Positions 3,199-37,611 of a stretch of 45,956 bases of DNA are shown here, piece by piece. This DNA is from a virus: positions 1-45,956 of the IMG/VR virus record IMGVR_UViG_3300033571_013083. One strand, given 5' to 3'. Below the pieces are notes generated by a model. That model ran no database searches. It worked only from the letters and a program-made list of their open reading frames with translations, and had not been told where the DNA came from. Position 1 is the first letter of the stretch. Each line of letters starts with the position of its first letter. A program made the translations under genes and the position numbers.

Positions 3199-4502
3199 CG
3201 GTTAAACATGTTCAACATGGGGTTCAGGTTGAATGGGTTGTTTGCATCAACCGGGGGCTTGTAGTTGGGAACCGGCCTGACAGGTGCGTTGACAAACTTG
3301 TCGCGCTCACGCATGAACTCGGTGCGGTTCAACGCTGCTGGGTCACGTGCCTTAATTTGCTCAAGGAACATGCGCAGCTCTTGCAAACTCATGCCACTGG
3401 CAATGAGACGATCAAACTGATGTGCGACCTCGGGTGAAAGATTCTTCACCTCATCCCGCATTGCGCGAATGTCGTCCATCTCCTGGTTGTACTTGGTGGT
3501 GTCCCTGGCTGCTGACATGGCTTCACGCTGACGCCTTACAGCCTCCACGTCCCCCTTATCAATTTGTTCCCGGGTCACCTTGGGGAGTGGATCAAACTCT
3601 CGATTCCGCATGTTATCGAGGGCAACCGAGTCAAGACCAGGCTGCGGTGCACTCCGAGCCTCCATCTCACTTGCCTTCTTAAACTGCTCATACTGCTTAA
3701 GGAGTACATCGTCATATCCCCTTAGAGCATAATCAGCGGCTTCAGCTGCAGTACGGCTAGTTACGTTTGGATTGGTGCGCATGTACCACCTGGCAAATCG
3801 GTCTCTTTCCCTCTGGTCCGCTTGAGCCTTTCCTGCAGCAGCAACAGACTCGGCGCGTGACTTTCGACTTGCTGCAGCCTCGTTGTTTCGCTGCTGAGAC
3901 TGAAGGTCACGCAGACGATTCATGATGAGTCTGCGGGCCGGATCGTTAGGTGGAAGAGTTGAAAGAGTCTTCAGGTGTCCATTGATCTCATCCTTGATCG
4001 GATCACCTGTAATGGGCGAAGTTGCTGACTGTGACGAACCGCCACCAGAGCCACCAGATTGGGAGCCCGTTCCAGTTCCTGCAGGAGGTTGCGAACTAGA
4101 ACTGGGGCGGGTTGAAGCAGACATGGGTGTGGCCTGAATTGGGGTGGCCTGAATTGGGGCTGGAAGCTGCATCCCCGGACCGGTTCCGGTTGCACCACCA
4201 GTGACGCTTGGAACATTCATGCCGGCTGCAGCCGCCTGCAAATCTGCAAGACGTCGCATGCAATCTTGGTACTGAGCTCCATTTTTGTCTGGATACTGTG
4301 TACACTCCTGGGCAACCTGAGCGACCTGCTCCTCAAGCGACACAGCCCGACCTCCGCCGCCTCCACTCTGTCGCATCTTCTGAGCCTGAGACGAAAGATC
4401 TGAATACAAAGACTGGTTCGGGGAAGCTGCGTAGCGCGTGCCCGCTGTCATTGGGTTCGGAGTCGGACTCGACGGGTTCTGCGGCAGTTGGAATGAAGAC
4501 AT
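3195..4502 (-). CDS. Virion-type protein with disordered Gly/Ser/Pro/Gln linker (435 aa)
   Basis: This is the first gene of the minus block. The start at 4502 (MSSFQLPQ) is chosen because everything upstream is antisense to the helicase gene. No good ribosome site precedes it, so a start inside the gene is possible. Residues 1-150 are low complexity, with a tandem PIQAT repeat from a 15-bp duplication near 4132-4161. The C-terminal 250 residues are helical and charged. Its N-terminus resembles that of the 360-aa gene at 31795-32877 (MSSFTPSSPSP). A structural role is inferred from location only. Confidence 0.55.
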   Translation of the reverse strand: MSSFQLPQNPSSPTPNPMTAGTRYAASPNQSLYSDLSSQAQKMRQSGGGGGRAVSLEEQVAQVAQECTQYPDKNGAQYQDCMRRLADLQAAAAGMNVPSVTGGATGTGPGMQLPAPIQATPIQATPMSASTRPSSSSQPPAGTGTGSQSGGSGGGSSQSATSPITGDPIKDEINGHLKTLSTLPPNDPARRLIMNRLRDLQSQQRNNEAAASRKSRAESVAAAGKAQADQRERDRFARWYMRTNPNVTSRTAAEAADYALRGYDDVLLKQYEQFKKASEMEARSAPQPGLDSVALDNMRNREFDPLPKVTREQIDKGDVEAVRRQREAMSAARDTTKYNQEMDDIRAMRDEVKNLSPEVAHQFDRLIASGMSLQELRMFLEQIKARDPAALNRTEFMRERDKFVNAPVRPVPNYKPPVDANNPFNLNPMLNMFNR

Positions 4503-4518
4503 AGTTGGAGGATACGCG
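4503..4518. promoter_or_regulatory. 16-nt gap between divergent start codons
   Basis: Only 16 nt separate the ATG of the minus-strand 435-aa gene from the ATG of the helicase. It holds the helicase Shine-Dalgarno (GGAGGA, 4507-4512) and has no room for promoters. Transcription of each block must therefore start inside the opposite gene, or further away, giving overlapping antisense transcripts. Confidence 0.55.
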
Positions 4519-5916
4519 ATGAAAGTGCTGACGCAACGGAACCCGCTCAACAGTGCGGAGCCGATGGTGATTGCCCGGGCTATTTTGCGAGCAAGGTGGA
4601 CGACGCCGCAGGGCCGATTGGGTTTGTGGGAGTGGCGGGGCGAGCCGTGGGAGTGGTATGCGGGGAAGTGGGTGAGGAGAGATGAGCGGTGGTTGGAGGA
4701 GGCGCTATGGTTGGCGATGGAGGATGCACATGTGCAGACGCCGACTGCGACGGGTGTAGTGGTGAGGAGGCTGGGACCCACGATGCAGACTGTGGGCAAT
4801 GTGCAGGCGGCCCTGAGGGCGCTGATCCGGTTGAAGCAGAGCTATGCGCCGGCGTGGCTGGGCAGTGTGGTGGATACCCCGGAGCTGGATCGGTGCGTGG
4901 CGTTCGAGGATGTGGTTGTGGATGTGCTGACGGGCAAGACGATGCAGCGGGATGAGCTGCTGTTTGAGCCCGTGGTGGTAGGGTGTCAGTGGGATCCGGC
5001 GGCGGAGTGCCCGACGTGGCGTGGGTGCTTGGAGCAGTGGAGCGGTGGGGACGAGAAGTGGGTCAAGCTGCTGCAGAGGGCCATGGGGGCCATGCTGATG
5101 CCGGGGAGAAGGTGGCAGAGGTGGCTGCTGATGCAGGGCAGGGTGAGAGGTGGTAAGGGCACGATCATGCGGGTCGTGAAGAACCTTGTGGGCGATGGGT
5201 TTAGGGGGTTGAGCATGGCCCAGCTGGCTAGTCAGTTCGGGTTGTGGGGGGCTGAGGCAGCTAGGGTGCTGAGCGTAAGTGAATTTGGGGCGCTGAACAG
5301 CAGGGAAAGTGAATTGGCGGTGGCGTCACTGAAAAACATTGTGGGTGGGGACCCGGTAAGCATTGATCGGAAGTACATGGAGCCCATCCGGGATGTGGTG
5401 TTGCCCGGGTTCTTGGTGGTTCAGAGCAATGAGATCCCCAAGTTGCCCAACAGGGGGCAGGGTTTGGCCAGCAAGATGCTGGTTTTGCCCTTCTCGAACA
5501 GCTTCTTGGGTAGGGAAGACCTGCAGTTGGGCGAGAAGTTGGCTCAGGAGACGGCGGGTATTGCTGCCTGGGCGCTGGAAGGGGCCAAGGAGCTGCTGGA
5601 GACGACCGATTCGAGCTCGCTGTGGCCGGTTCCGACGGCTGCAGAGGAGGTTGTGGGCCGATTCCAGTCGCTGAATAACCCGGTGCAGGACTTCTTGGAG
5701 GCCCATTTCGTGGAGAACGAGACGGGCTTCGTGAGCACGACCAACATTTGGGGTCTGTGGCGCACGTGGAAGGTGAAGGTTGGGTATCGGGAGGAGCTGA
5801 GCCAGGCCAAGTTGGTGCATAGGGTGGTGGAAGAGGGCGCTTGGAAGCTTACAAGGGCCAGATTGGGCGAGGAGCGGATCCGGGGGGTCAGAGGTCTGGC
5901 CGTAAGGTCCGAATAG
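4519..5916 (+). CDS. D5/P4-type SF3 replicative helicase
   Basis: This is a superfamily-3 helicase of the phage P4 alpha / poxvirus D5 type, expected to unwind DNA at the phage origin. Residues about 90-200 fit the D5 N-terminal region. Walker A is GRVRGGKGT with K213, the Walker B-like acidic residue is E255 in SVSEFG, and a sensor Asn lies in VVQSNEIP. An NRGQGLASK segment probably supplies the arginine finger. No archaeo-eukaryotic or DnaG primase domain is fused; at 465 aa it is shorter than P4 alpha. The start at 4519 has GGAGGA 8 nt upstream. The next 527 nt are non-coding and iteron-rich, a typical place for the cognate origin. Confidence 0.85.
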   Translation: MKVLTQRNPLNSAEPMVIARAILRARWTTPQGRLGLWEWRGEPWEWYAGKWVRRDERWLEEALWLAMEDAHVQTPTATGVVVRRLGPTMQTVGNVQAALRALIRLKQSYAPAWLGSVVDTPELDRCVAFEDVVVDVLTGKTMQRDELLFEPVVVGCQWDPAAECPTWRGCLEQWSGGDEKWVKLLQRAMGAMLMPGRRWQRWLLMQGRVRGGKGTIMRVVKNLVGDGFRGLSMAQLASQFGLWGAEAARVLSVSEFGALNSRESELAVASLKNIVGGDPVSIDRKYMEPIRDVVLPGFLVVQSNEIPKLPNRGQGLASKMLVLPFSNSFLGREDLQLGEKLAQETAGIAAWALEGAKELLETTDSSSLWPVPTAAEEVVGRFQSLNNPVQDFLEAHFVENETGFVSTTNIWGLWRTWKVKVGYREELSQAKLVHRVVEEGAWKLTRARLGEERIRGVRGLAVRSE

Positions 5917-6944: not shown

Positions 6945-7439
6945 ATGAACCGTTCCGAACTCGCTCACATCCGTACCACCATCACTGGCACTCGCAGTCT
7001 GCTGGCTGCCTACTTCTACGGCACCTTCGACATGACCAGTCTCCGCAGTGTTCTCAAGGAGGCCAAGGTTGACATCTTCCTCAACCACGAGATCGGCGGC
7101 GTCATGGACCACCTCGCCAACATCATCGAGGCCCTGGACCAAGCCATCGGCGACAATGAGCCCGGCGATCGCGAGCCCTTCGTCCCGGCTCCCGACACCC
7201 AAGACGAGGTCAGCTACTGCGCTGACTGTGGTTCGATCGAATGCACCCCTGCATGCCCCAACCGCATGCGTGTTGCCAAGGCTGATCCCACTTGCCCTCA
7301 CTGTGGCGGCTCCATGCTGGGCGACGGATGCACCACCGTCATGCACTGCGAGCGAGTGGACATCACCTCCGTGTGCGCCGAACCCGACTCGGCCCCCATC
7401 TTCTGTGACCCCAACACCCCCAACAACCCCAACGACTAA
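6945..7439 (+). CDS. Protein with C-terminal Cys-rich (zinc-ribbon-like) region (164 aa)
   Basis: The start has AGGAGA nine nt upstream. The N-terminal 75 residues look helical. Residues about 90-131 hold clustered cysteines: CADCGSIECTPACPNR, then CPHCGGSMLGDGC and a later HC. The CxxC pairs suggest one or two zinc-binding knuckles. The function is unknown; a nucleic-acid- or host-protein-binding early role is plausible. Its stop overlaps the start of the next gene (TAATG). Confidence 0.7.
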   Translation: MNRSELAHIRTTITGTRSLLAAYFYGTFDMTSLRSVLKEAKVDIFLNHEIGGVMDHLANIIEALDQAIGDNEPGDREPFVPAPDTQDEVSYCADCGSIECTPACPNRMRVAKADPTCPHCGGSMLGDGCTTVMHCERVDITSVCAEPDSAPIFCDPNTPNNPND

Positions 7440-7630
7440 TGGAACAGCTCACCATCGACGAACTGCGCAATGAACTCTTCATTGCCCTCTACACCGTCCG
7501 CAAAATCGAGAGCTCTATGTTCGAGTTCACACGCAGTGGAGACCTCGTGTCACCACGCGTCCTCTGCCCCATAAGGCGGGAACTCGAGAACGTACGAACT
7601 GCTCTCGACAAGGCTTACTCCAACATCTGA
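7439..7630 (+). CDS. Small helical protein of unknown function (63 aa)
   Basis: Coupled to the Cys-rich gene by a one-base stop-start overlap (TAATG). The product is mostly amphipathic helix with no recognised motif. The dense coupling and the hairpin right after it at 7644-7672 make it a credible last gene of a two-gene unit. Confidence 0.6.
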   Translation: MEQLTIDELRNELFIALYTVRKIESSMFEFTRSGDLVSPRVLCPIRRELENVRTALDKAYSNI

Positions 7631-8886: not shown

Positions 8887-8913
8887 TGGGGGTGGGCCCA
8901 GCGCCCACCCCCA
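8887..8913 (+). terminator. 11-bp GC hairpin
   Basis: TGGGGGTGGGC (8887-8897) pairs with GCCCACCCCCA (8903-8913) over a 5-nt loop, 8 nt after the stop of the DUF669-like gene; CTTCTCTT follows. A likely terminator or processing stop. Confidence 0.75.
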
Positions 8914-8946: not shown

Positions 8947-9507
8947 ATGTCTTTCTATCGCATTGACCGCATCCACCAGTCCGACCTGCACGCCCTCTCC
9001 ATGGGCAACATTCCCATCCGCGTCACCGAATCCCCATTCGGCGACCGCCTGGAACTCGTCGACCCCAACCCCACTACCCCCGCCATCGACCCCGACGGCT
9101 GCGACACCCCCAACTTCTCACTCCGTACCTGCGATGCCTCGTTCGCGGAACTCCTCCGCGTAGCCAACGCCGCAGCCCGTCGTGCTGCCACCGAGTTCCT
9201 CATCTCCAAGCTCGGTCGTCGCTCCGCGGCCCGTCTCAATTCGACAGACGACCAGCTTTCCCGTAGCATGGCAGCCTTCTTCGGCCGCTTCAATGCAGCC
9301 GACATCGACGCCATCGCACTCCCCCCACGTATCCGCGATCGCAACGCCAACCCGTTCCTCCCCACCTCCGGCGACCCTGATTTCCGTCGCGCATCCGGCA
9401 AGTATCGCCGTGTGCGCCGTCTCGATAGCGACCGTCGTCTCGGTGACGACGCGTCCTGGTTCACCATCCACCACTTCGCACCCTCCAACAGGAGCACTGC
9501 CCGATGA
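8947..9507 (+). CDS. First gene of the AAA-VWA operon, unknown (186 aa)
   Basis: The start has AGGAG ten nt upstream. The protein is Arg-rich in its second half (residues 70-175) with a possible helical bundle at 70-115, and has no known motif. Its stop overlaps the next start (ATGA). It leads a run of six genes, at most 2 nt apart, that ends with the AAA+ ATPase and VWA protein, so it may be a partner or substrate of that machine. Confidence 0.65.
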   Translation: MSFYRIDRIHQSDLHALSMGNIPIRVTESPFGDRLELVDPNPTTPAIDPDGCDTPNFSLRTCDASFAELLRVANAAARRAATEFLISKLGRRSAARLNSTDDQLSRSMAAFFGRFNAADIDAIALPPRIRDRNANPFLPTSGDPDFRRASGKYRRVRRLDSDRRLGDDASWFTIHHFAPSNRSTAR

Positions 9508-10055
9508 AGCCCATCTTCTCCATCACCATGGTCTTTGGTACCGGTGATGACGCCCTCCTCTCCGTCCTCCGCACCCGTCCCTTCTCCGCTGGCTCACCCG
9601 ACAAGAAGCTCGTGATGTTGGAGCGAGTCGAGTCCTCGGACATGGAGGCCTACGTACAGACCCCCGTCAACGGACGCAAGGGAACCTACGCCGTGATGTA
9701 CACGCAGTCCTCCCCCGACCACTCCATCCCCGACGCATTCTGGAACGCCTTCTGGGGTGCCATCTCCCGCAACCTCCAATTCCAAGCCGTCTGCCGCAAC
9801 GCCACCATCCTCAAGGACCAGGAGCAGATCCCCTCACCATCCCTCGCAGCCGGTAAGGACGCGGTCATCGCCGCACTCAACGCCGGCATGGACTTCGAGC
9901 GCATCATCATCAACGACAAGCTCGCCCCCTCCGCCTTCCTCACCCTGGCCAACAAGGCCAAGCACAACTCCGTCTCCTCCTCCACCTACGACCCGTACTA
10001 CAAGGACTCGGACATCCCCGACGACATCGACCGCCACGAGAAGGGCTACAACTAA
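9504..10055 (+). CDS. AAA-VWA operon gene 2, unknown (183 aa)
   Basis: It overlaps the previous stop by four nt (ATGA) and the next start by one (TAATG). It is a mixed alpha/beta globular protein with no recognised catalytic motif; the last 30 residues are polar and Asp/Tyr-rich. Function is unknown. The strict coupling suggests defined stoichiometry with its neighbours. Confidence 0.65.
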   Translation: MKPIFSITMVFGTGDDALLSVLRTRPFSAGSPDKKLVMLERVESSDMEAYVQTPVNGRKGTYAVMYTQSSPDHSIPDAFWNAFWGAISRNLQFQAVCRNATILKDQEQIPSPSLAAGKDAVIAALNAGMDFERIIINDKLAPSAFLTLANKAKHNSVSSSTYDPYYKDSDIPDDIDRHEKGYN

Positions 10056-10594
10056 TGACCACCATCGCCCAATACAACCTCGACAATCCACCCGTGGGCC
10101 TCGCGCCCATCAGCATCGACACGCACAGCATCCGTTCTCTGCGCGTCGAGATCCGCTCTCGCTTCTCCGCACTCGCCAACCTGCGAACCACCCTGCTCCT
10201 CGGCACCGATGTCTACGAGGAGATCGAGTTCGACAAGAACGCACCCATCACCACCAACAAGCGCATGCTCGAGTACGCCGGCGTCAAGCTCGTGCACCCC
10301 GACACCCTCGACCAACGCGCACGCACGACCGACCTCAACATCGTCGGCAACCATCTCAACTTCCTCATCGCCTGTCTCGAAGCGCTCAACATCTACGTCA
10401 CCAACACCAACCACCTGAGCGACTTCGAACTCTACACCACCCTGTTCTGTGACGTACTCGAACAGGAACTGCCATTCCTTCCGCCATCAGTTGGCGTCTG
10501 CGAACTCATCGACATGAACTACAACCGTGCCGAAGCAGACCCCGTCATTGATCGTGACTCCACACTCCCGCAACCCCCAGCAAGGATCTTCTGA
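10055..10594 (+). CDS. AAA-VWA operon gene 3, unknown (179 aa)
   Basis: The start overlaps the preceding TAA (TAATG). The protein appears mostly helical, with a hydrophobic helix near residues 95-118 (NHLNFLIACLEALNIYVTNTNHL) followed by an acidic region. No family is recognised. It sits in the middle of the coupled operon that encodes the ATPase and VWA protein. Confidence 0.65.
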   Translation: MTTIAQYNLDNPPVGLAPISIDTHSIRSLRVEIRSRFSALANLRTTLLLGTDVYEEIEFDKNAPITTNKRMLEYAGVKLVHPDTLDQRARTTDLNIVGNHLNFLIACLEALNIYVTNTNHLSDFELYTTLFCDVLEQELPFLPPSVGVCELIDMNYNRAEADPVIDRDSTLPQPPARIF

Positions 10595-10596
10595 CC

Positions 10597-10797
10597 ATGG
10601 TCATGCCCGCCCCCGAATCCACTGACCTCGAGACGCGTCTCGCCAATCTCGAGAAGGCATTTCTCACCCTGGTCAACGTGGTCAAGCTCGACCACGAATC
10701 GCAGCAACTCTTCGATCAGAAGATGGATCTCATCAACGCCAAGGTGGACGCACTCGCCGCGTTCATCAAGCTCGCACCCACCACCAAGGAGGACTGA
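10597..10797 (+). CDS. Short coiled-coil protein in the AAA-VWA operon (66 aa)
   Basis: It starts 2 nt after the previous stop; a second in-frame ATG at 10603 is possible. Residues 9-58 show heptad-like spacing (LETRLANLEKAFLTLVNVVKLDHESQQLF and onward), so it is likely a small coiled-coil oligomer or adaptor. AAGGAGG near its end serves as the ribosome site of the ATPase gene. Confidence 0.6.
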   Translation: MVMPAPESTDLETRLANLEKAFLTLVNVVKLDHESQQLFDQKMDLINAKVDALAAFIKLAPTTKED

Positions 10798-10798
10798 C

Positions 10799-11830
10799 AT
10801 GTCATCGTTCAACATCTCGCCCGCTGCTCTCGCTGCTCTGCGCGCACGCGTCAACGCCATCAAGCCCATCACCCCAACCCCGTCCGCACGCCTCACATCA
10901 CCGGACCCCATGCCACCCGAAACCCACAAGCCCGCACACGACGACGGCCTGTTTGCCGCATCCCCCCACGGTCTGTCCGTCCCGGGCAACACGCCCGCAA
11001 CCCCGACCGAACGCATCGACCTGGAGATCGACGCCAACCTCTCCACCTACCTCCACGCCATTGCTGCTGACCCGCAGATCCACAACGTCCGACTCATCGG
11101 CCCGACCGGCTGCGGCAAGACTTCCATCGGCCAGTGGCTGGCCCAGGAGACCCGTCGTCCCTCGCTCATCATGGACTGCGCCGTGATCCGTGAGCCGCGC
11201 GACTGGTTCGGCTATCGCACCATCGTCAACTCCCAGATCACGTGGGTCGACTCGACCTTCGTCCGCACTGTCGAGGCAGGCAACGCCATCATCGTGCTCG
11301 ACGAACTCAACCGTGCCCCAGCTTCCGTTCTCAACGGTCTCTTCGGCCTGCTCGACCATCGTCGTGAGTGCCACGTCGAGGAGCGCGGTCGTCCCGTGCG
11401 CGTCGGACCCAACACCATCTTCATGGCCACGACCAACGTCGGTGCCAAGTACGTCGGCGCATCCCCCATCGACTCCGCCATCCGCAACCGCTTCGCACGC
11501 GTGATCGAAGTCTCCTACCTCAACCCCACCGAAGAGGCCAACCTCCTCACTCGCCGCACCAATCTGCCCCTTGCCCAGGCCTCAGCCCTGTGCGAGGTCG
11601 CAGCCACCACCCGTTCCAAGACCTCAGCCATCGAGGCCTTCTCCACGCGTGAACTTCTCGCCATTGCCTATGACCTGCACCGCTTTGGTGAGCAGTCTCT
11701 GCGCTACACCATGCTCTCCAAGGTCGAGGACCCTGCCCAGCGTGCGGCCCTCGCCACCCTCCTCACCGGCAAGTTCCCCTCGATCATGGGTACTGCTACT
11801 TCCACCACCACCAACACGGAGCCCTTCTGA
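10799..11830 (+). CDS. MoxR/CbbQ-like AAA+ ATPase (343 aa)
   Basis: Residues 1-75 are Pro/Ala-rich and disordered. The AAA+ core follows: Walker A GPTGCGKTS at about 100-108, Walker B IIVLDELNR at about 163-171, sensor 1 FMATTN near 207 and an RNRF arginine-finger segment near 230. The ELNR Walker B and inserted loops fit the MoxR/CbbQ/NorQ group, which works as hexamers with VWA-domain partners to remodel or insert metal into target proteins. The partner gene follows directly with a TGATG overlap. RavA-ViaA, CbbQ-CbbO and CobS-CobT are the cellular analogues. The phage substrate is unknown. Confidence 0.85.
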   Translation: MSSFNISPAALAALRARVNAIKPITPTPSARLTSPDPMPPETHKPAHDDGLFAASPHGLSVPGNTPATPTERIDLEIDANLSTYLHAIAADPQIHNVRLIGPTGCGKTSIGQWLAQETRRPSLIMDCAVIREPRDWFGYRTIVNSQITWVDSTFVRTVEAGNAIIVLDELNRAPASVLNGLFGLLDHRRECHVEERGRPVRVGPNTIFMATTNVGAKYVGASPIDSAIRNRFARVIEVSYLNPTEEANLLTRRTNLPLAQASALCEVAATTRSKTSAIEAFSTRELLAIAYDLHRFGEQSLRYTMLSKVEDPAQRAALATLLTGKFPSIMGTATSTTTNTEPF

Positions 11831-13947
11831 TGCTGCGCAAAGTCATCGACGAGTTCGACATCGACCCCACTGGTTGGTTCGACCTGCCCAACGACGCATC
11901 CAACCCCCAAGTCGACCACTACACGCGGCCCGCAACCAACCTGTGGTCCCTGTGGGTCAAGAAGCCCACCGCCATCCATTTCGTGACGGAGGACACGCTC
12001 TCCAACCAGTCTCTCGTTGCACTCGCACGCTCCATCTCTCGCGCATTCACCATGCGCAAGGACTGTGCCCCATCCATCCGTCGTCTCACTGACGACGAGT
12101 TCATCTCGCTCCTCATCCAGGCCCACGCCTACCGCAACAACACCTTCACTCTTGAATGCAGCAACGCGGACGACCTCCAACGAGACATCGAGTCCACCTA
12201 CTTCAACATCAAGGAAAAGTACACACCCAGCGTCTACCTACCCAACTACTTCATCAACCCGCAGTTCGCAGGTGACGTCGGCGATTACTATCTCCTCACC
12301 GACGGCATGACTGGCTACGGACTCGAGGCCATGGAGGCCATCTCCTTCGTCCTTCCCACCCTCGGCCGCATCGGCATCAGCAACCTCATCCAGATCCACG
12401 ACAAGTCCCTCATCCCCGACACCCCTGACGGTCTCCGTCATCCCGACGCAATCCGTGCCGAGTGTGCACTCGACATCTGGTGGGCCCTGCAAGTCCGTGA
12501 CATACGCTCTCGCATCCTCACCCAGTGGCCCGGTTGGTCTGACATCTTCACTGCCCAGGACTCTCTGCTCCTGCCCGCAGTCGAGACCATGCAGAACCAC
12601 GTTTCCAAGAAGTCCCCCCAGCGATCAGAGCTCCGTCGTTTCTGCATCGCCATGACGTGGAACCTCAACCCCCAAGCCACGCGCCTGAAGTTCCCGCGTG
12701 GCACTGACAACGCGTACAACGCCGCAGTCTCCGCTTGGTCCACCATCCTCTCCACTCCCGAGACCGACGGCGCACGCCTCCTCGCCATCCACAACTTCGT
12801 TTGTTCCCTCAACCTCAACACTGAGGAGCGACGCATGCGTGCCGGCCGTGGTGGCCAATCAGGTATCGACAACGGCAACCTCGACGGCAAACCCGATCGC
12901 AAGTCTCGCATGAATCGCAATCGTCACGAGATCCTCGTCGAGCCCAGCTCAAACGAGACCAAGAACAAGGACGAGGGCATCGTTCCCGGCATCATCGCAC
13001 CATGCGGAGACTGGAATCGTCTGCTCAACTCCAGCCACCCTGACCACCAGATGGAGGCAAACCAAGCTCGTGACTACCGCGCCACCTCCATCAAGTTCCA
13101 GGCTGAGTACCGTGCACGCATTGCCGATCAGATCTCTGGCAGTGCGTGGTTCGTGCCCAACCCACCGCCCCTCGAACACGGCAACCTCGACGGCGTCCTC
13201 GACGAGGGCAACCTCCTGCGCTACGCTGCCTTCTCCGATCCCAACATCTTCTCCGTCCATCCAGACGCCGGCAACGGACAGATCGTGATCGGCATCCTCG
13301 TCGACGGCTCAGGCTCCATGAGTTGCTATCTCCGTGGCCCCGACAGCAAGCCACTTCCCAACCTCCCAACCTGCATGCACGGAGCCATGTGCTTCCTTGG
13401 CGGCATGCGAGACGGTCTCTCCCGCAACTCCAACATCAAGGTCGAAGCCTTCTCGTTCGACTCACGCAGCAAACTGGAATCCGATAACTCCAATCACCCA
13501 CTCAACATCACGCTGCCACTTCCCCCCACGAAGTCAGACCATCTGTGCGTGCTTCGTCGACTCGACACCGAAGACGACATGCTCAACAACAAGCCAGGCG
13601 GTGGCACTCCCATCTCCTGTGCCATCCACACCTTGAACCAGCACCTTGAGTGCAACTACCCCGATGCCCATCGCATCATGCTCATCCTGACTGACGGTGA
13701 TCCGCAAGCCTTCTGCCAACACCCTGACTATCCCGACCGCACCCATCACGACGACACCAACGAAGTTCGCAAGATCGTCTCCTCCATTTCCACACCCGTG
13801 TTCTGTGTCGGTATCAACGTCGATGCCTCCACCCTCCAGGCCCAGTACAATGTGGGTCATTGGTTCGTGGTCGACTCCCCACTCAAGGCTGCAGACGTCG
13901 CAGCTGATCTCGTGCGGGGAATCGGACAGTCACTCAACTGTTGCTAA
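11830..13947 (+). CDS. VWA-domain protein, CobT/ViaA-like partner of the AAA+ ATPase (705 aa)
   Basis: A von Willebrand factor A domain occupies about residues 485-685. It has an intact metal-ion-dependent adhesion site: DGSGS starting at D492, the Thr of GGGTP near 590 and TDGD near 620. The N-terminal 480 residues are a helical region of unknown family, with a charged linker at about 330-385. In NorD, CbbO and CobT the VWA end binds substrate or metal and the N-terminal region binds the AAA+ ring. The gene overlaps the ATPase gene by one nt, so the pair is almost surely a complex. The length is at the upper end for the group. Confidence 0.85.
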   Translation: MLRKVIDEFDIDPTGWFDLPNDASNPQVDHYTRPATNLWSLWVKKPTAIHFVTEDTLSNQSLVALARSISRAFTMRKDCAPSIRRLTDDEFISLLIQAHAYRNNTFTLECSNADDLQRDIESTYFNIKEKYTPSVYLPNYFINPQFAGDVGDYYLLTDGMTGYGLEAMEAISFVLPTLGRIGISNLIQIHDKSLIPDTPDGLRHPDAIRAECALDIWWALQVRDIRSRILTQWPGWSDIFTAQDSLLLPAVETMQNHVSKKSPQRSELRRFCIAMTWNLNPQATRLKFPRGTDNAYNAAVSAWSTILSTPETDGARLLAIHNFVCSLNLNTEERRMRAGRGGQSGIDNGNLDGKPDRKSRMNRNRHEILVEPSSNETKNKDEGIVPGIIAPCGDWNRLLNSSHPDHQMEANQARDYRATSIKFQAEYRARIADQISGSAWFVPNPPPLEHGNLDGVLDEGNLLRYAAFSDPNIFSVHPDAGNGQIVIGILVDGSGSMSCYLRGPDSKPLPNLPTCMHGAMCFLGGMRDGLSRNSNIKVEAFSFDSRSKLESDNSNHPLNITLPLPPTKSDHLCVLRRLDTEDDMLNNKPGGGTPISCAIHTLNQHLECNYPDAHRIMLILTDGDPQAFCQHPDYPDRTHHDDTNEVRKIVSSISTPVFCVGINVDASTLQAQYNVGHWFVVDSPLKAADVAADLVRGIGQSLNCC

Positions 13948-13960
13948 TGGAGAATCTCCC

Positions 13961-14245
13961 ATGCCATCAGATGCGAACGGAACTAACCTGCGTACTTTGT
14001 GGCACGCATTCAAGCAGCGACCCGTACCCGCCATCACACTTGTGGATCTGCGCCATGAAGATACAGGCGCACGAATCCCCACCCTGTGTGTCCTCGAGTC
14101 CAGCCCAGACGGGGACAGACTCTTCCCCTACGCCTTCATGATTGACCGAGACCTGCACGACTTCTGTCGCAAGCTCCAGGTCCCCGAGCAATACGAAGCC
14201 ATCTGGGATTGGTGCATCCCACCCAAGAAGGAACCCACCGCATGA
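13961..14245 (+). CDS. Unknown protein (94 aa)
   Basis: The start at 13961 is preceded by TGGAGA. It is a small globular protein with regular beta spacing around ITLVDLRHEDTGARIPTLCVLE and a helix DRDLHDFCRKLQ. No family is recognised. It is coupled by an ATGA overlap to the uracil-DNA glycosylase gene, so a DNA-repair or nucleotide-related role is possible but unsupported. Confidence 0.65.
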   Translation: MPSDANGTNLRTLWHAFKQRPVPAITLVDLRHEDTGARIPTLCVLESSPDGDRLFPYAFMIDRDLHDFCRKLQVPEQYEAIWDWCIPPKKEPTA

Positions 14246-14919
14246 ACCTCCTGGTCCTGCCCCAACCCCAGTGCACAGCGTGCGACCTGCACAAGTACGC
14301 AAAGAACCCCGGAGTCCCCGGGGTTTTTCTTCCCGACTCCCAGCCCCTTCATCCCTCGACGCCCGTCGTTGCCGTACTCGGCATGAACCCCGGCTTCCAG
14401 GAGGACCGATCCAACGAGCCATTCGTCGGGCCCTCAGGCAAGATGCTCAAGGAGATCTACCTTCCCGCCATCACCCCACTCGCCACCGTCCTCCTCCTCA
14501 ACACCGCCCGCTGCTACACCCCCGCAGCTGCCCCGCCCAAGCCCCGCCACTTTCGCTGCTGTTTTCCAAAGTTCTCCGCCCAGGACCTTGACACCATCGG
14601 CGGCATCATCCAACCTCACGTCCCCAAGATCCTGCTGTGCACCGGCGCTCACGCCATCTCCACTGTGACTAAGTTCACACACCCCAAGCCCTGGTCCCTG
14701 ACCTCCGCCTTCACCAAGCAAGGCACCCCCACCAACCTGTGGGGGGACTGGCAACTCTTCACCACATTCCATCCCGCCGCTGTGCTCCGCTCTCGCAATC
14801 TCTTGCACCCCGTCGCCGATCACATGACTCTCGTCCATGCCGCACTGACTGGCGCGATGCCTGTAGCATCCTCGCCACGTGTCGTCCCCCCATTCTCCCC
14901 CTTCGAGGTAATGCCATGA
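14242..14919 (+). CDS. Family-4-like uracil-DNA glycosylase (225 aa)
   Basis: Expected to remove uracil from DNA. It has an N-terminal CTAC (C11, C14), as in Fe-S uracil-DNA glycosylases, then GMNPGFQEDRSNEPFVGPSGKML (about residues 48-70), the counterpart of the GEAPGxxED...GxAGxLL motif. NTARCYTP and FTTFHPAAVLRSRNL follow, the latter matching the H-P-S/A loop. Further cysteines near residues 92 and 110 could complete a cluster. The first residue of the usual GEAPG motif is altered to GMNPG, so substrate range may differ. It sits just upstream of the replication genes, with ATGA overlaps on both sides. Confidence 0.8.
   Translation: MNLLVLPQPQCTACDLHKYAKNPGVPGVFLPDSQPLHPSTPVVAVLGMNPGFQEDRSNEPFVGPSGKMLKEIYLPAITPLATVLLLNTARCYTPAAAPPKPRHFRCCFPKFSAQDLDTIGGIIQPHVPKILLCTGAHAISTVTKFTHPKPWSLTSAFTKQGTPTNLWGDWQLFTTFHPAAVLRSRNLLHPVADHMTLVHAALTGAMPVASSPRVVPPFSPFEVMP
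14302..14328 (+). terminator. Terminator-like hairpin inside the glycosylase gene
   Basis: AACCCCGG (14305-14312) pairs with CCGGGGTT (14318-14325) around a 5-nt loop; flanking A and T tracts extend the stem or give a U-run TTTTTCTTC. It lies about 60 nt inside the coding region. This is the shape of an intrinsic terminator or attenuator that could lower expression of the downstream polymerase genes. Confidence 0.5.
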
Positions 14920-15299: not shown

Positions 15300-15514
15300 T
15301 GCACAAGGCAACACGTCCAAGCGAATACCTTGCCAACCAACCACGGCGAGGTGACTACCGTGCCCTTGTCCCATTCGCACCCATCCGCACCCAGCAGGAA
15401 GTGGCTGACATCCTGGGCATCACCAAGTCCCAAGTCACCCACCACGAACAAACCGCATTCCTCAAGATGCGGGCTGCCCTTGCTGCCTACGGATACAAGG
15501 ACCCCAACGCATGA
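15299..15514 (+). CDS. Sigma-70 region-4-like mini-protein (71 aa)
   Basis: Residues 29-60 (RTQQEVADILGITKSQVTHHEQTAFLKMRAAL) match the helix-turn-helix of sigma-70 region 4, including the order EVA..LG(I/V)...V...E..A..K.R. Only this DNA-binding part is present; regions 2 and 3 are absent. It probably binds DNA at -35-like sites or the RNA polymerase flap, acting as a transcription regulator. The start overlaps the previous stop (TGATG) and its stop overlaps the polymerase start (ATGA). Confidence 0.75.
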   Translation: MHKATRPSEYLANQPRRGDYRALVPFAPIRTQQEVADILGITKSQVTHHEQTAFLKMRAALAAYGYKDPNA

Positions 15515-17508
15515 AGCTTATCTCGCTTGACATCGAGACGTATGGTGCGTGCACCCACAACTCCAAGGGCCAGGTCCTCCCCTCCCAATCCGCCTTCCAT
15601 CCACAACGCGCACTCATCACCGACGGCGTCTCACGTGACAACATGGTGCTCACGTGCACCATCACCACGGAAGTCCACTCCTGCCCATGCACCAAGAACT
15701 ACAAGGCCATCACGCTAGACCAGGCGAAGCCCTGTTGTACCTTCACCATGCACATGGACCAGGAGAAGGACCGGGTACTTCTTCACCGTTGGCTCACGTG
15801 GGCTGACGCCATCCTCGGCATGAACCTGCCCTTTGACCTGCAGTTCCTGCGAGCCTGTGACCACAGGTTCCAGTTCGCCCTGCCCCCGTACGGCAAGACC
15901 CTGTTCGACCTGTCCATCCTCAACTACCTCCACTCGGAACTGCGCCCAGAACGATCGCTCAAATCCCTTGGACCAGTCCTCGGTACTCATGCCTACAAGC
16001 GTACCATCAAGGACGGCAAGTTCAGGTCCCCCCACGATCCTGAGTTCCTGGACTACGCAGCCCAGGACACGCACAACACCCTGCTCGCCTCCTCCGAACT
16101 CGCCCGTCGCATCCTGCTCGACTGGCCTGGTACGGACAAGCTGTCTGACTACTGCATTCGCCACTACTCGGACTGCCTGTGGACCATCATCACCATGTCC
16201 GAAGCCGGCATCCCCATGTCCCGAAAGGACTTGGAGAACCTGCAGTCCACTCTCCTGACCCAGGCATCCGACGCCATGGCCAAGGCTGAATCCCATGGCG
16301 TTCAGCTTGAGGGCACCGGTTCTGCCAAGAGCAAGACCGAGTTCCTCAATGTGACAAATGGTCTGCTCTCATCCCGAGGAGTCGACATCTTGTCACACCC
16401 CTTGGCTCAGTTCACGGAGAAGACACGCGCCTTCTCATTCTCCGACGCCAATCGGAACCTGATTCGTGGGTTCCTCCGGGACACCGATACCAGGGAGATC
16501 GCAATCCTCGAAGCTGCAGCCGCTCATCAGCAGGCACAGAAGATGCTCTCCACCTACATCTGGCCCCTGCTCCACGGCAAGCGCAACAAGCCCGAGGACA
16601 AGTCGTCCACCATTCTCCCACTCCCACATGCCGGCGAGGCTGACGGGCTCGCCTTCCCAGTCTGGTACCCAGTACCCTCCGCCTCCAAGGACGCTTCCGG
16701 TTCTGAGGGCGGCACCATCCAGGGCCGCATTACCTGCAAGAACCCCAGCGCCCAGACCTTTCCCCCCACGATCAAGGCAACGATCAAGTCCCGGTTCCAT
16801 GGCGGTACCATCCTGTCTCTCGACCTGTCCCAGATCGAGTTGCGAGTTGCTGCTCTGTGCTCCGGCGACAAGTCCCTGCTTGCCGCCTTCAACGATGGCC
16901 TGGATCTCCACACTGACCGGGCCGTCCAGCTCTTCGGCCAGTCCTGCCTCTCGTCTCCAACATTCAAGAAGCTTGAGCGCCAGGTCGGCAAGACCATGAA
17001 CTTCGCCGACCTCTTCCTCGCTTCCCCATTCCGGATGCGCATGTCCGTCCACGAGATGACCGGCCAGCTCATGCCCCTGTCCTTCTTCGAAGAGGTAGCC
17101 GAGACCCGGCCCGACGCCCGCCCCGGCCTCCATACCTGGCAGCAGTCCCTCATCCGCACCGCTGACGCCCAAGGCTCCCTGACCCTGCCCTTCACCGGCC
17201 AGTCCCGCACCTTCGTGGGGGGAAGCTCCGAGCACCTCAACGAGATCGTCAACTTCCCCATCCAGACCCAGGCCGGCAACACCCTCCTCGCCATCCAGCG
17301 GGCCATTGCTCCCCTGTTGTCCCCCCACGTCAAGATGTTCCTCCAGATCTATGACGCGGTCTACCTCGACGTGCATCCCTCCGTGGACCTGGATTCCCTA
17401 AAGCAGAAGTTAAAGTTCCACATTGAGGAAGTCCGTGACACCGGCTACTGGGCCATGCTCCAGTCCCACTACGGCCATACCGTTCCCCTGGAGTACGACT
17501 TTAGCTAG
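15511..17508 (+). CDS. polA: DNA polymerase A family with 3'-5' exonuclease domain (665 aa)
   Basis: The replicative polymerase. Exonuclease motifs: LDIET (D7, E9), NLPFD (D109) and YAAQD (Y182, D186), so proofreading should be intact. Polymerase motif A is LDLSQIELR (D438, E443). Motif B is R490..K494...F498...F502: position 498 equals E. coli F762, while the usual Tyr766 is Phe and both glycines are replaced. Motif C is QIYDAVYLD (D615), where the usual HDE is YDA. There is no 5'-3' exonuclease domain, as is normal for phage PolA. Four copies of the TCCCCCCACG motif lie inside the gene. No thioredoxin-binding loop is evident. Confidence 0.95.
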   Translation: MKLISLDIETYGACTHNSKGQVLPSQSAFHPQRALITDGVSRDNMVLTCTITTEVHSCPCTKNYKAITLDQAKPCCTFTMHMDQEKDRVLLHRWLTWADAILGMNLPFDLQFLRACDHRFQFALPPYGKTLFDLSILNYLHSELRPERSLKSLGPVLGTHAYKRTIKDGKFRSPHDPEFLDYAAQDTHNTLLASSELARRILLDWPGTDKLSDYCIRHYSDCLWTIITMSEAGIPMSRKDLENLQSTLLTQASDAMAKAESHGVQLEGTGSAKSKTEFLNVTNGLLSSRGVDILSHPLAQFTEKTRAFSFSDANRNLIRGFLRDTDTREIAILEAAAAHQQAQKMLSTYIWPLLHGKRNKPEDKSSTILPLPHAGEADGLAFPVWYPVPSASKDASGSEGGTIQGRITCKNPSAQTFPPTIKATIKSRFHGGTILSLDLSQIELRVAALCSGDKSLLAAFNDGLDLHTDRAVQLFGQSCLSSPTFKKLERQVGKTMNFADLFLASPFRMRMSVHEMTGQLMPLSFFEEVAETRPDARPGLHTWQQSLIRTADAQGSLTLPFTGQSRTFVGGSSEHLNEIVNFPIQTQAGNTLLAIQRAIAPLLSPHVKMFLQIYDAVYLDVHPSVDLDSLKQKLKFHIEEVRDTGYWAMLQSHYGHTVPLEYDFS

Positions 17509-17517
17509 ACTGGTGGG

Positions 17518-18096
17518 GTGCAGAACGAACTCACAATCGTCGTGGACTCCAGGGAGAAGAAGCCGCTGCCCTTTCCTGAGCATCTTCCGTCGCTCAGGTC
17601 GGATTTGCCTGCTCTCTCCCGGAGTTCACGCACGTACCACCTCAAGATCGAGAAGGCCACCCTCAAGACTGGGGACTACCTACTCAAGGGCCACGAAGCC
17701 GGTTGCCTGATTGAACGCAAGGGATCCCTCGCCGAGGTAGCAGGCAACTGCCTGACACCAGATGGCAGACGGAAGTTCGTGGCTGCCATGGATCGGCTCA
17801 AGGACTCCTGTCTGTATCCCTACCTGCTGCTTGAGGGGAACATCCTCGAGACCATGAATCCTACGAAGGACCTGCCGGATCCGTGGAACGCAGTGGATTC
17901 CCTGCACCGCATCCTGCTTGAAAGAAATATTGGTCTGATTCTCTTACCGAACACGAGCATGAGTGCACGCCGAGCCGTAGCTGAGTGGGCTGCTCGCCTC
18001 TTGGTCAACGCCGCGCTGTGCCCTATACTCCCAGCTAACACCCCTCCCGAGGAACCAACCGATGGACCAACTTGTCACGCTGACGACTCCCCGTAA
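17518..18096 (+). CDS. ERCC4/XPF-type nuclease (192 aa)
   Basis: A structure-specific endonuclease candidate. It has DSRE (D10, R12, E13), GDY (G52, D53) and ERK (E66, R67, K68), the complete ERCC4 active-site pattern GDx(n)ERKxxxD. The start is a GTG at 17518, 10 nt after the polymerase stop, with a poor ribosome site. Phages use such enzymes on branched recombination or replication intermediates. Its last 35 nt overlap the next gene. Confidence 0.85.
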   Translation: MQNELTIVVDSREKKPLPFPEHLPSLRSDLPALSRSSRTYHLKIEKATLKTGDYLLKGHEAGCLIERKGSLAEVAGNCLTPDGRRKFVAAMDRLKDSCLYPYLLLEGNILETMNPTKDLPDPWNAVDSLHRILLERNIGLILLPNTSMSARRAVAEWAARLLVNAALCPILPANTPPEEPTDGPTCHADDSP

Positions 18097-18571
18097 GACC
18101 ATGCACCTGGCTGTTGTTGATGGTAATGCAGCCGCTGCCTCAGCTGCACCGGCTGATCCAGTGCCAACTGCCACTAAGCCTGTGACGGATACGGCCAACA
18201 ATCGGATTGTGATTCCTGGGGTGACGAACTATCTCAAGTTCATTGCGCTTGCAACTCAGAATACAAGTAGCAATCTGGTCTTTAGGATTTGGGGTTGGAG
18301 CTACGTTCCAGACATTGGTAGATGGTGTCCTACTCCCATTGGCAAGACTTCAAATGTGACTACTGCTAACACCACCTACATCACCAATAACGCTGTGAAT
18401 CTTGGTTGGGGTCGCAATGCTGGGGCTACCACTGGAGACCTCAAAGCAGTTCAGACGACTGCAAATGAAATGACTTCATTCATTGCAGATCCAGCAGGTG
18501 CAGAATTGATTGAGTTCACGTGCAGTGGATCCGCTACACCAGTGTGGAACATTCTTTGGGGTGAGGTGTAA
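18062..18571 (+). CDS. Probable virion/adhesin-associated beta-rich protein (169 aa)
   Basis: The start at 18062 has GAGGAA eight nt upstream and lies inside the ERCC4 gene. It is rich in Thr, Ala, Asn and small residues (NTTYITNNAVNLGWGRNAGATTGDLK), as in beta-sandwich surface proteins. It is coupled by TAATG to the glycine-rich adhesin. Its base composition is more A/T-rich than the genes on either side. A capsid-decorating or tail-tip accessory role is inferred. Confidence 0.6.
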   Translation: MDQLVTLTTPRKTMHLAVVDGNAAAASAAPADPVPTATKPVTDTANNRIVIPGVTNYLKFIALATQNTSSNLVFRIWGWSYVPDIGRWCPTPIGKTSNVTTANTTYITNNAVNLGWGRNAGATTGDLKAVQTTANEMTSFIADPAGAELIEFTCSGSATPVWNILWGEV

Positions 18572-23448: not shown

Positions 23449-23825
23449 GCTACCGACACCGAGTGAACGGAGGGCCCCGGTCACCGGCTCGCCCCTCCCA
23501 GAAGAAGGGCGAACTTCAGGCTCACGCCGACATGCTCGAGCGCATGGTCAACCGGTTCGCCGAACGCATTCGGGTACTGGAGGCGGTGCATTCTCTGCGG
23601 GTGGAGGAAGCGGGCCTAGTACTGGGCACCCTGAACCTGCTGTACCGCCGGTGGCGTGAGGAGCAGCCGGATGAGCCCGACCGTGGATCCTCATTCATGG
23701 TGTGGGTGGAGCGGTTGCGTGCAGAGGACGTGGTTGAGTACGCCATGGGCAAGTGGGACAACCGAGACTTACTCGGGGTTCTGGCCAGCCAAGGCTCCGA
23801 TATCGACATTGAATCGTCGGACTGA
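23445..23825 (+). CDS. Helical protein at the end of the plus block (126 aa)
   Basis: The start overlaps the preceding stop. The N-terminus is basic, residues 25-70 are a long predicted helix (ELQAHADMLERMVNRFAERIRVLEAVHSLRVEE), and the end is acidic. No family is recognised. Its last 57 nt are antisense to the coding end of the 1366-aa minus-strand gene. Confidence 0.6.
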   Translation: MSYRHRVNGGPRSPARPSQKKGELQAHADMLERMVNRFAERIRVLEAVHSLRVEEAGLVLGTLNLLYRRWREEQPDEPDRGSSFMVWVERLRAEDVVEYAMGKWDNRDLLGVLASQGSDIDIESSD

Positions 23826-26800
23826 CTCGCGCTGTTTGGCCGTCTCCCCTTCAGCCAGTGAACCAGGGGGAAGACCCATGCGCTGTGCAAATGGGGAACC
23901 TGCAAGTGCCTGCTGGTACATGCCACGCACGTCAGAAGGCATCGTGTCCAGCATGCGCTCGCTAACTGAGGTCTCGCGCATGGAGATTGCACGATCCCAC
24001 TCGCCTTCCTTAACGGTCATCGGTACACCATAACGCTTTCGGTACTCGGCCTCGATGGCGTTGGCTGCCGTCATGTTGTTGCCCAACACTGCGTCCTTGA
24101 ACTTGCGACGTAGATTAACCATCTCCTGTCGGTTGGCCAGCAAGAACTTCGTTGCCTCTTGGGGGGACTGGTGCTTCTTGAAGTCAGCGCCGATACCCCG
24201 CATCACAAGAGAGAAAGGCGAGTCGAAGGACTGCAGCATGCCGTTGCTGTCGTACACGGGCACCATGCCCTGTTCGTTTCGATTGCCCCAGTCTGCATAC
24301 TGAGACTGGATGATGCCGAAGTTGCCACCGCCTGGAAGGGCAGGCATGGCACCCAACACCTTCTGAATCGCGATACCACCCGGAAGCAGGCGGAAAGCGG
24401 CCTGCCTAAACTGCTCGCGATCGCCCTCACCTAGTGAGCTGATGAGCTGTGCCGGAATGTCAATTACCGGTGGCACAGGCAGCCCCTTTGACATGAACTG
24501 CGAAGGCAATTGTCCAAGGGCAGAACCTGCCAGACCAGAAGACAAGTCGACATTGAACATGTTCTTGCCGATCTCGTAGGCCACCGCACCGGTGCCAAGA
24601 AGTCGAGACATGTCGCCGATGACAGCAGGGATCTCAACTGTGGGCCCACCAAACCTGCCAAATCCGAAGGAGCGCGTCCCCCCACCGAGCTGATTGCTGA
24701 TGAACAGGTTGCTCAGCGTACGGGTGGGGTACTGCAAGAACATTCGGAGGAGGGAGTTGCCAAGCAATCCACCCTTCTGAAACGCCTGAAGTTGGGTAAT
24801 GGGGTTGTAGTTGAAGTTGGTTGTGGACTGCATCAACTGGGCAAAGTCAAGTGCCTCGTTGCCAGCCAAACGGATACCACTTTGACGCTGCAGTTGACCC
24901 AGCCAGCCCATGGTCGCTTCAGCCACCGTGATGCGGTTCACTGCTTCGGCAGCCTGGAAGAGAGCCATGGGCATGTCGATAAGAAGCCACTTGCCAAGGG
25001 ATGGAGTGCCCTGCGGTCGACGCATGAAGGACGAACCTTCCATCATGCTAATGGCATCATGACCCATGCCTAGAAGGTCTCGTCCCCCCGACGCGGATCC
25101 AGCCAAGCGGATGTGCTTCTGCCATAGCTTCATCTGCTCTTCCGGTGCCATGCGACCCAGACCATGCTTGCTCACACGCTCGGCGTAGTATCCACCAAGC
25201 TGCTTGAAGGCAGAGGCATAACCCTTCAGGATGTGTTCTCCACCCATCCATGTAGTGGCCCACTGCAGAGGCTGCAACATGTTCCACATTGCAGAAACTG
25301 CATTGAAACCAAGATGGGTTGCGTATAGATAACCTGTGATGCCTCCTTGGGCATAGACCGAGTCGAGGTTGTAGCCAGTAAGCTGGCCATACTGCTCCAT
25401 GTTATTGATGATGGCTTGACCCATGCTGCCACCATTCTTCTTGATCCACTGCCCAGCAGATGAAGATGCGACTGACCTAGCCATATCGCGTGCTTGCTGG
25501 CCAAGTCGCAACTGAAGATGTGATGCTGGGTTAGACCCACCAAAGAGACCCGGAAGAACCACGCGTTGGAAGTACTCTTGTACCTCTGGCGACTCCACTC
25601 GCATCATGGTTTCAATCGCATCGTCAATGGTCATAAATGGAGTCGCCCCTGTAAGGAGCGACTGAGCAGGTGGTGACTGCATCTTGCCCAGACGATTCAA
25701 TGTGGCCTGATAGCCCCTGATCTCGCTATTGATCTTGGTCAACTGTGCAGTTCGGGAAGAACTATCTGGCCGAGACAGCAAGATATTTCGACGACCGTAA
25801 GCTGCAGAGAGGCGGCCTCGAGCGCGAAGTGCCTCGGGACTGGAGGTAATAGTCTCTGGAAGAGACCAGATCAACTCGCCCGTTGCCTCATTCGTCATCT
25901 GCATGAGATTGAGGTCTTCAGGAGTCATTGCAGTGCCGGGGCGCACCGGCCCAGAGTAGGCACCACGAAGTTGGGGGGCACGATTACGGATGGCCTCACG
26001 CAACAGGCCATACATGCTGGGTGGGACTTGCGATCCATGCAGAATGATTGTGCTGGTTGCATCCCGCATGTAACTACGCATGTTCATTTCGTAGCCAAGA
26101 CTGTGCGTAGCAAGATGACCACGATTCTGCGCAAGCTGGTTTTCACCACTGAGAAGAGAACTTCGAACCATGCCATCCATTTGCTGAACGGCTTTGTCTA
26201 GCGTAATTGGTTTCCCCAAATGTGGAAACGTGACATCCATTGCCGCAGGATCCATGCCCCGCTCACGAGCCATTTTTGCAATCGTTTCGAGATCTTGCGG
26301 ATCCCACGGGATTCCCTCGCCTCTACGGGGAAGAACAAAGCCTGCAATCCCACGAGAGTCGACGATTGATTCGCGACGACGCACAAGAGCATCCGAGTGG
26401 GCAGGACCCAACGGTTGAATACCACCACCTGGACCTGTCTGCATCTTGTAGATGCGGTAGTTATTACGAGGTAGATAGGTATGCTGAAGAAGAGGTTCCA
26501 CCTTGTCTTGAATCAGCTTGCGAATGCGCTCAGTTGTCACGCCATTCAATGATCCACGGCGGGCAGCCTGCTTAGCCCAAGCTGGAAGAATTCGATCCAC
26601 CTCCGACATGGGCAGCAAGGAATCCAGCACCATCTCGTGTGCAGACAAGTCTCCAGTCTTGTCACGCTGACGCTGCCACTTGGACCAAAGACTCATGATC
26701 TTGTCCACGTCCAGTTCATTGGTTGGCAACGGAGTGCCAGCGGCATCCACCTTGTAGAAGGTTCGCTTCTTCATCTCTTCTCTAAGATTGCGACCTGCCT

Positions 26801-36604: not shown

Positions 36605-37611
36605 TCACCACTTGCCAAGTGGGCACTTCTCTTTTTCCAGACGAACCTTAAGCTTGGTAAAGCACCCGCAGATCTTGCATCGAACCCCAGTCCACTCTGG
36701 GCAGGTTTTGCAGATCTCTAGACGGGTGTGAGCCAAACTGGTTTCTGGAGTAGCCATAGCCTGTGCCACTTTTGCCGCGCTCTGAAAGAGCCACTTGGGG
36801 TCTCTTGGTGTAGTTGCAATAGGGAGTCCAAACTCCTTGCACTTTTCTAGTACACGGAACTGCACATCCAAATCTGACTTGGCTCCCCACAAATGGGTGT
36901 AACCAAGGTTGTGTGCTTCCTTGTCTTTCTCCCTATTGGTGAAAGTATTAAGGAGACACTCTAGGTGTTTGTTCTTGAGTCGAGCATAGTGATAGAAATA
37001 CAACTGCTCAGAAATTGTGGCTCGAGACCAAGTTGGGGTGTCTGGAAGTGGCGGACCAGTCATGAGATCCCGATTTGCAGGATCCATTACAAAGTCCCAT
37101 GCGCGTCCATACGCCTCGCCAATGAAGTCAGTGTCATGTCCCCCAAGAATGCCAGCATTAATTGCGCCATCTGGGTCCTTGGCGTTTTCCAAATCGTGAA
37201 GCTTAGGACAGGCATCGTAGAACTTTCGAACTGAATAGCGCATGTCAATATCCAGTTCAATGCGTTCAACAAACAAGGGACTACTTGTTAGTTCGGTTGG
37301 GAGCGGTTTCCACAGCAAGACGTCATAGTCAATATGAAGAAACGGGATGCCCTCTTTGGCTGCCTTCTTGTACGTAAAGATCTTGCCCAACGACCAGACG
37401 TTCTTGTACTCAATGGGGATCTGATCGAGTTCTGTACTTACAGAGTCGTAACCCAGACTTCCCAGCACCGAAGCACCAACTGAGTCAGTGACTAGGTGTA
37501 CTTCTCCATAATGCTTCTTGAGGAGATAGGCGGATAGCCTGTGAAGATCAATCAGGAAAGACGAAGGCTTTCCTGCGTACCCCGCACTCCAATAAGAATG
37601 GTATGTCTTCA

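Follow-up and report, generated by a model that had tools for sequence, protein, structure and literature searches.

The last two of six tightly packed + strand genes in a tailed phage, represented by a 45,956-base virus record (IMG/VR IMGVR_UViG_3300033571_013083; this whole stretch is the window in what follows), encode a predicted MoxR-class AAA+ ATPase and a protein with a von Willebrand factor A (VWA) domain. We consider it probable that this pair is a NorQD/CbbQO-type remodeller powered by ATP, made together with the replication genes of the phage, and that g2, the second of the four genes lying upstream of it (g1 to g4), is a lineage-specific adaptor or client. Tailed viruses commonly carry AAA-VWA pairs, and the cobalamin label attached to them was inferred from sequence in the published accounts (papers with PMC numbers are cited throughout from excerpts). 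In the window lineage this label fails direct tests, and a small partner gene that can be put to experiment travels with the motor. Naming the client would reveal the job of a widespread viral machine.

The ATPase and its VWA partner

Judged by its sequence, the 343-aa protein is a MoxR-class (CbbQ/GvpN/NorQ-like) AAA+ ATPase with intact motifs. It matches Pfam AAA_5 (E 2e-20) and PHROG_249 (2e-30), and its nearest solved proteins in the PDB are NorQ (1e-14), CbbQ (2e-12) and Midasin. All 11 of 11 aligned AAA sequences keep the Walker A motif (GPTGCGKT, 11099-11122), the Walker B motif (DE, 11300-11305), the Asn of sensor 1, Arg231 and Arg284 without change, the sensor and arginine-finger names being our assignment. 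As a candidate GvpN the protein was rejected, having an E-value of 9e-12 but a score of 45 bits against a cut-off of 266.8, which was passed by 0/10 records.

The 705-aa protein is a NorD/CobT-like VWA protein with a complete metal-ion-dependent adhesion site (MIDAS). Although Pfam scarcely detects the domain (E 0.09), the MIDAS residues D492/S494/S496, T593 and D622 (codons at 13303-13317, 13606-13608 and 13693-13695) are invariant in 13/13 aligned sequences. A preliminary description of the window had read both the P-loop and the MIDAS as intact, which the alignments bear out; mutated Walker or MIDAS residues in relatives, which it had named as evidence that would count against it, were found in none of the aligned sequences.

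The structure model of the VWA protein (predicted local distance difference test (pLDDT) 70.6, predicted template-modelling score 0.49) consists of a helical N-terminal region (residues ~26-330), a low-confidence linker (~331-400) and a VWA part (~404-705). In a fold comparison with the PDB, the VWA part is best matched by NorD of the NorQD complex (E 9e-8; Z 17.9, root-mean-square deviation (rmsd) 4.3, 204 residues), followed by the Rea1 MIDAS (Z 16.2, rmsd 3.1 over 198 residues), in a list from which the absence of CobT or CbbO is not informative on membership. Among viral models, phage proteins annotated as VWA or "CobT-like" score best, ORF892 of Acidianus two-tailed virus (ATV) being a weak match at rank 28 (E 6e-5), and an iterated VWA profile reaches the viral loci L023 and L024. 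Direct sequence searches recovered less: there was no match by tblastn to named phages and none by phmmer to PDB sequences at E 5, and a profile picked up nothing but VWA domains and chance ribosomal matches. Three insertions in the VWA domain of the model, at residues 498-515, 549-570 and 624-643, are each candidates for a pore finger.

Gene layout and linkage of the upstream genes

From g1 to the VWA gene, successive junctions are a 4-nt overlap, a 1-nt overlap, a 2-nt gap, a 1-nt gap and a 1-nt overlap (Table 1), so that the six-gene layout of the preliminary description is confirmed in its lengths and spacing by the open reading frame list and by homologues. The start of g1, an ATG inside a longer open frame, is the same Met used in relatives. 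Between the window and its close relative L039, the ratio of nonsynonymous to synonymous substitution rates (dN/dS) is 0.46 for g1, 0.11 for g2, 0.43 for g3, 0.40 for g4, 0.03 for the AAA gene and 0.20 for the VWA gene; this purifying selection, together with homologues of each frame in related contigs, indicates that the frames are real genes.

Relatives of the lineage were found via the family A DNA polymerase (PolA). Nine contigs have the pair at this locus: the window, L039, L040 and the six contigs of group M (L032, L033, L034, L041, L043 and L045). A near-identical 19-kb contig, listed as L019 and L038 (the latter 99.99% identical to the window), shares the region, as does L039; L038 was left out of the nine. 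L035 and L036 start inside the AAA gene or just before the VWA gene, and their upstream genes are not covered.

In 9/9 of these contigs the pair is preceded by both g1 and g2. A g4-like small protein of 63-117 aa also stands before the pair in 9/9, directly so in eight; these proteins, probably helical, are alignable and poorly conserved. The slot after g2 is variable, being filled by g3 in the window, L039 and L040, by an unrelated gene of ~100 aa in L032, L034 and L043, and by nothing in L033 and L041, while in L045 the g4-like gene is followed by an insert of another kind. The pair sits elsewhere in L047 and L048, after the Sak4 gene. There g1, which has homologues in 11 contigs including these two, stays at its old place, and in L048 g3 stays by the uracil-DNA glycosylase (UDG) gene, away from the pair; g2, by contrast, is absent from the whole contig in both (0/2). 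Since g1 and g3 can be left behind, they are separable from the pair and are probably neighbours rather than parts, whereas g2, with the small g4, would be its lineage-specific adaptor or client.

The preliminary description had treated all six genes as one machine, its upstream proteins as candidate phage-specific adaptors or substrates, and had proposed to follow their co-occurrence across phage genomes. The first of these ideas did not survive: in L047, L048 and all contigs outside the lineage, neither g2 nor g3 lies upstream of the pair, an outcome that the description itself had named as refuting it. The second holds in part: the upstream proteins are lineage-specific, and co-occurrence ties g2 and the protein at the g4 position to the pair (9/9), but not g1 or g3. 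For g1-g4 there was no worthwhile family match in Pfam, PHROG, NCBIfam or defence models, and no homologue outside the lineage among the fetched loci. The structure model of g2 was poor (pLDDT 46) and unusable for a fold search.

Table 1. Features of the window discussed in the text
Feature	Position	Strand	Length	Basis and remarks
Primase/helicase-type gene	4438-5916			PHROG DNA primase 4e-46; upstream of the six genes
GC-rich hairpin	8887-8913	+	11 pairs	resembles a terminator or attenuator; within the 67 nt ahead of g1
g1	8947-9507	+	186 aa	no notable family match in Pfam, PHROG or NCBIfam
g2	9504-10055	+	183 aa	found only with AAA-VWA downstream
g3	10055-10594	+	179 aa	slot variable across lineage
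g4	10597-10797	+	66 aa	probably helical
MoxR-class AAA+ ATPase	10799-11830	+	343 aa	Pfam AAA_5, PHROG_249, PDB matches, alignment
VWA protein	11830-13947	+	705 aa	alignment, structure model, NorD best PDB match
UDG	14245-14919	+		Pfam UDG 4e-16; downstream neighbour, outside module
PolA	15511-17508	+		Pfam DNA_pol_A 3e-22; query for finding relatives

Divergence from group M is very uneven along the locus. Identity to the window is 84-87% for PolA, 81-82% for UDG and 63-64% for AAA, falling to 50-65% for g1, 37-38% for VWA and 31-35% for g2 (dN/dS for this comparison is near saturation and was left out). The VWA protein is least conserved at residues 46-130 and 331-415, with 8-25% identity outside L039, and most conserved at 416-480. 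At the DNA level, the alignment with L034 ends ~50 nt into the VWA gene, two short stretches apart, and resumes just past the VWA stop. This fits a motor whose client-facing side changes, or exchange of the gene as a cassette.

The six genes belong to a single + strand block, from ~6.9 to ~22.2 kb, that also holds, downstream of them, the genes for UDG, a helix-turn-helix protein, PolA, a nuclease of the ERCC4 type, an exonuclease and a protein like Sak4. Upstream, besides the primase/helicase-type gene, there are small genes. UDG keeps its place even in relatives whose pair is missing or lies elsewhere. A 67-nt gap upstream and one of ~30 nt downstream delimit the set. Neighbouring + strand genes are equally tight (for example at 7439, 14916, 15299 and 15511), so coupling alone is not special. 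Within the gap before g1, an inverted repeat is present in 8/8 aligned contigs (the window and seven relatives), its position held and its sequence different in L039 and L045. When four of the eight were folded, the hairpin gave z-scores of -3.6 to -5.9, with no shuffled sequence equally good, which suggests a terminator, an attenuator or a leader element. An Rfam search gave no match, a sigma-70 promoter scan found 1 site against 2.1 expected, and the operon DNA had no match to named phages.

The window has a single virion-type match, on the opposite strand: 38289-39236 matches the SU10 adaptor at E 1e-4, short of the cut-off for that family. The - strand half is largely without annotation: a 335-aa protein at 36608-37612 carries DUF6734 (4e-34) and a C-terminal DUF6171 (4e-7), and two large proteins at 23772-27869 and 86-2764 (1366 and 893 aa) have no Pfam or PHROG match. 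Among the relatives, L042 and L045 are one contig of 51,185 bases which, because PolA is split over its two ends (residues 291-665 and 1-280), probably represents a circularly permuted genome of ~51 kb, and L035 has two copies (7114-7575 and 9667-10179) of a homologue of the window gene at 18062-18571. As clues to the host, the best match of PolA to named sequences was 24%, and cellular relatives, at 16 loci, reached 23-28% identity only; neither pointed to a host.

Pairs in other viruses and the cobaltochelatase label

The phage AAA-VWA pair is of a kind already known from tailed viruses of archaea, from cyanophages and from jumbo phages, under the names "cobST" or MoxR-vWA. The preliminary description knew of no described phage system with this set; for the pair itself, that is not borne out. 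Liu et al. (PMC8651126) report a cobST pair in tailed viruses whose hosts belong to eight orders; such pairs are also reported for Mae-Yong1326-1 (PMC9503304) and Hardycor1 (PMC7911831), and a cyanophage MoxR has been placed in the CGN subfamily (S-CREM1, PMC9964418). In our own survey, 72/86 further viral contigs have a same-strand VWA gene close to the AAA gene (46 downstream, 26 upstream), the other 14 comprising three without an AAA frame, eight with <3 kb on one side and three without VWA. These 86 take in L056, of the L047 branch, and the near-identical contigs L003/L004, L010/L011/L013 and L012/L014; duplicate contigs (L052-L055, L057-L059, L062) and L017, whose AAA gene is cut by the contig end, were left out. 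Seven phage records gave a VWA match in six, following the AAA gene in four, just upstream of it in Hardycor1 and ~3 kb upstream in HHTV-2; no VWA match was found in the Mel-JY01 record.

Around the pairs of 22 other contigs, which are not independent of one another, the 129 neighbouring proteins include UvdE (6) and the small (4) and large (3) chains of ribonucleotide reductase, as well as clamp loader, DnaB, thymidylate synthase and GroEL (2). Judging from their positions, the reductase cases probably form one related group. DruA-like proteins match 5/129 of these neighbours. The neighbours also include DUF2201 metallopeptidase-VWA proteins, and L009 has a second AAA-like gene (3304-4362) and a MIDAS-bearing gene (4435-5688) a few kb from its main pair; on these two grounds, some phages may hold two different AAA-VWA systems.

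The published reading of viral cobST (PMC8651126) is that the pair hijacks the CobN of the host. Applied to the window, it would make the pair CobS-CobT, an auxiliary metabolic module that joins host CobN and raises cobalamin for nucleotide synthesis, and PHROG_249 does carry the label "porphyrin biosynthesis", just as phage VWA relatives are annotated CobT-like. We hold this to be very unlikely here. The curated CobS (TIGR01650) and CobT (TIGR01651) models have no match in the window, L034 or L048, and the cut-off of each was passed by 0/10 records, where a control exceeded it in 1/14 genomes. The window has no CobN, although one may exist in the host, and neither the small nor the large chain of class I ribonucleotide reductase was found in 11/11 lineage records, some of which may be fragments. 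The reductases beside the pairs in other phages are labelled class Ia, a class that needs no cobalamin. The cobaltochelatase label is not supported in this lineage on these sequence comparisons. Of the cellular likenesses in the preliminary description, those to NorQ-NorD and CbbQ are upheld by PDB matches, and that to CobS-CobT is not. Since some other phage AAA proteins match the CobS model below its cut-off (Mae-Yong1326-1, E 6e-26), the conclusion is confined to the window lineage.

A wider conjecture, which we regard as unlikely as it stands, is that phage "cobST" pairs widely go under a wrong name and serve as NorQD-like activators, completing or remodelling some enzyme in the DNA or nucleotide metabolism of the virus, with a shared motor to which each lineage adds an adaptor of its own (here g2). 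In the other phages, the client would then perhaps be the neighbouring metal-containing ribonucleotide reductase.

Candidate mechanism, rival readings and known systems

In the model proposed for NorQD (PMC13036017), a finger of the VWA protein enters the AAA pore, the VWA domain rotates and the linker is stretched, while the client is held both by the MIDAS or linker and by the N-terminal domain. By analogy, the MoxR-class AAA+ ring of the phage, presumably a hexamer, would turn its VWA partner. The partner would grip its client at two points, through the helical N-terminal region and the MIDAS-bearing VWA domain, and the linker between them would be stretched as modelled for NorQD, with g2, together with g4, moving with the motor as its adaptor or client. 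Because the pair is encoded with replication genes, a replication- or nucleotide-stage protein, or a host enzyme, is a more likely client than a part of the virion. In this account the identities of the genes, their intact motifs, the layout of the VWA model, the conservation and the co-occurrence are observed, whereas the hexamer, its twisting motion, what g2 does, when the pair is made and what it acts on are inferred.

Several observations weigh against it. The place of a gene says little about its timing or client. The pair is also not essential to the replication module, as L044 and L049 carry a related PolA and yet lack an AAA gene throughout their contigs. The co-occurrence of g2 with the pair comes from one lineage and may reflect linkage rather than function; within group M, g2 distances follow those of UDG (correlation 0.52) as much as those of VWA (0.48), which speaks against simple co-evolution of g2 with the pair. 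For g1, g2 and g3 there is neither homology nor structure to draw on, the VWA model is of moderate confidence, and the finger that would enter the pore was not located in it. It is a serious possibility, if short of an even chance, that the upstream genes are unrelated to the pair and are ordinary small early genes sharing its transcript, which would be compatible with any reading of the pair itself. The persistence of g1 and g3 away from the pair, the variable g3 slot and the restriction of the upstream genes to one lineage all favour this, but g2 occurs only upstream of the pair and is gone from the full contigs in which the pair has moved.

Two other roles for the pair have to be set against remodelling in the replication stage. 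One is that of a virion-assembly chaperone, as proposed for ATV p618/p892 and the jumbo-phage MoxR-vWA pair (PMC7824862, PMC7911831), with which the weak match to ORF892 agrees. We think this unlikely, given that the pair is on the + strand with replication genes and the sole virion-type match on the other, that the 25 families met most often around the pairs of the 22 contigs include none of virion type, and that the jumbo-phage pair has a metallopeptidase domain, to which there was no Pfam match here. The pair might instead act on a host protein, remodelling it for takeover or to counter defence, and the fast-changing g2 and N-terminal VWA regions would then track the host. In its favour, the two poorly conserved VWA segments and g2 diverge far beyond AAA and PolA; but fast divergence fits relaxed constraint or cassette exchange as well, dN/dS between close relatives stays <1, and PADLOC defence models returned only generic AAA similarity (DolB 2e-6), making this role quite unlikely.

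The pair of jumbo phages (PMC7824862), proposed there as a virion-assembly chaperone, likewise joins a phage AAA+ protein to a vWA protein, the latter being fused in that case to the metallopeptidase domain that the window lacks among its matches. ATV p618/p892 is also a viral MoxR ATPase with a MIDAS partner, linked to ours by the fold match to ORF892, but with a reported role in tail development (Scheele et al. 2011, as cited in PMC7824862, PMC9964418 and PMC7911831), in contrast to the replication-gene setting of the window. Also known are the viral cobST/PHROG_249 pairs of archaeal tailed viruses, cyanophages, and Gordonia and Microcystis phages, in which a CobS-like AAA is adjacent to a MIDAS-bearing VWA protein and which the same profile families link to the window pair; here the window proteins differ in missing the CobS and CobT models, and gene order differs in some relatives. 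Among cellular systems, the Rubisco activase CbbQ-CbbO resembles the pair in that CbbQ counts among the closest AAA sequences with a solved structure; no Rubisco was matched in the window, and the likeness concerns the AAA protein, sequence not placing the VWA protein in this family. From NorQ-NorD, which serves to activate nitric oxide reductase (PDB 9qhd, 9qh6, 9qh8), the window AAA differs by an N-terminal extension, the VWA part by its identity of only ~15%, and no nitric oxide reductase was matched in the window, yet a MoxR-class AAA+ ATPase again stands beside a partner built from an N-terminal region, a linker and a MIDAS-bearing VWA domain, a likeness of layout that comes from the model, in which the N-terminal region was not separately matched to NorD.

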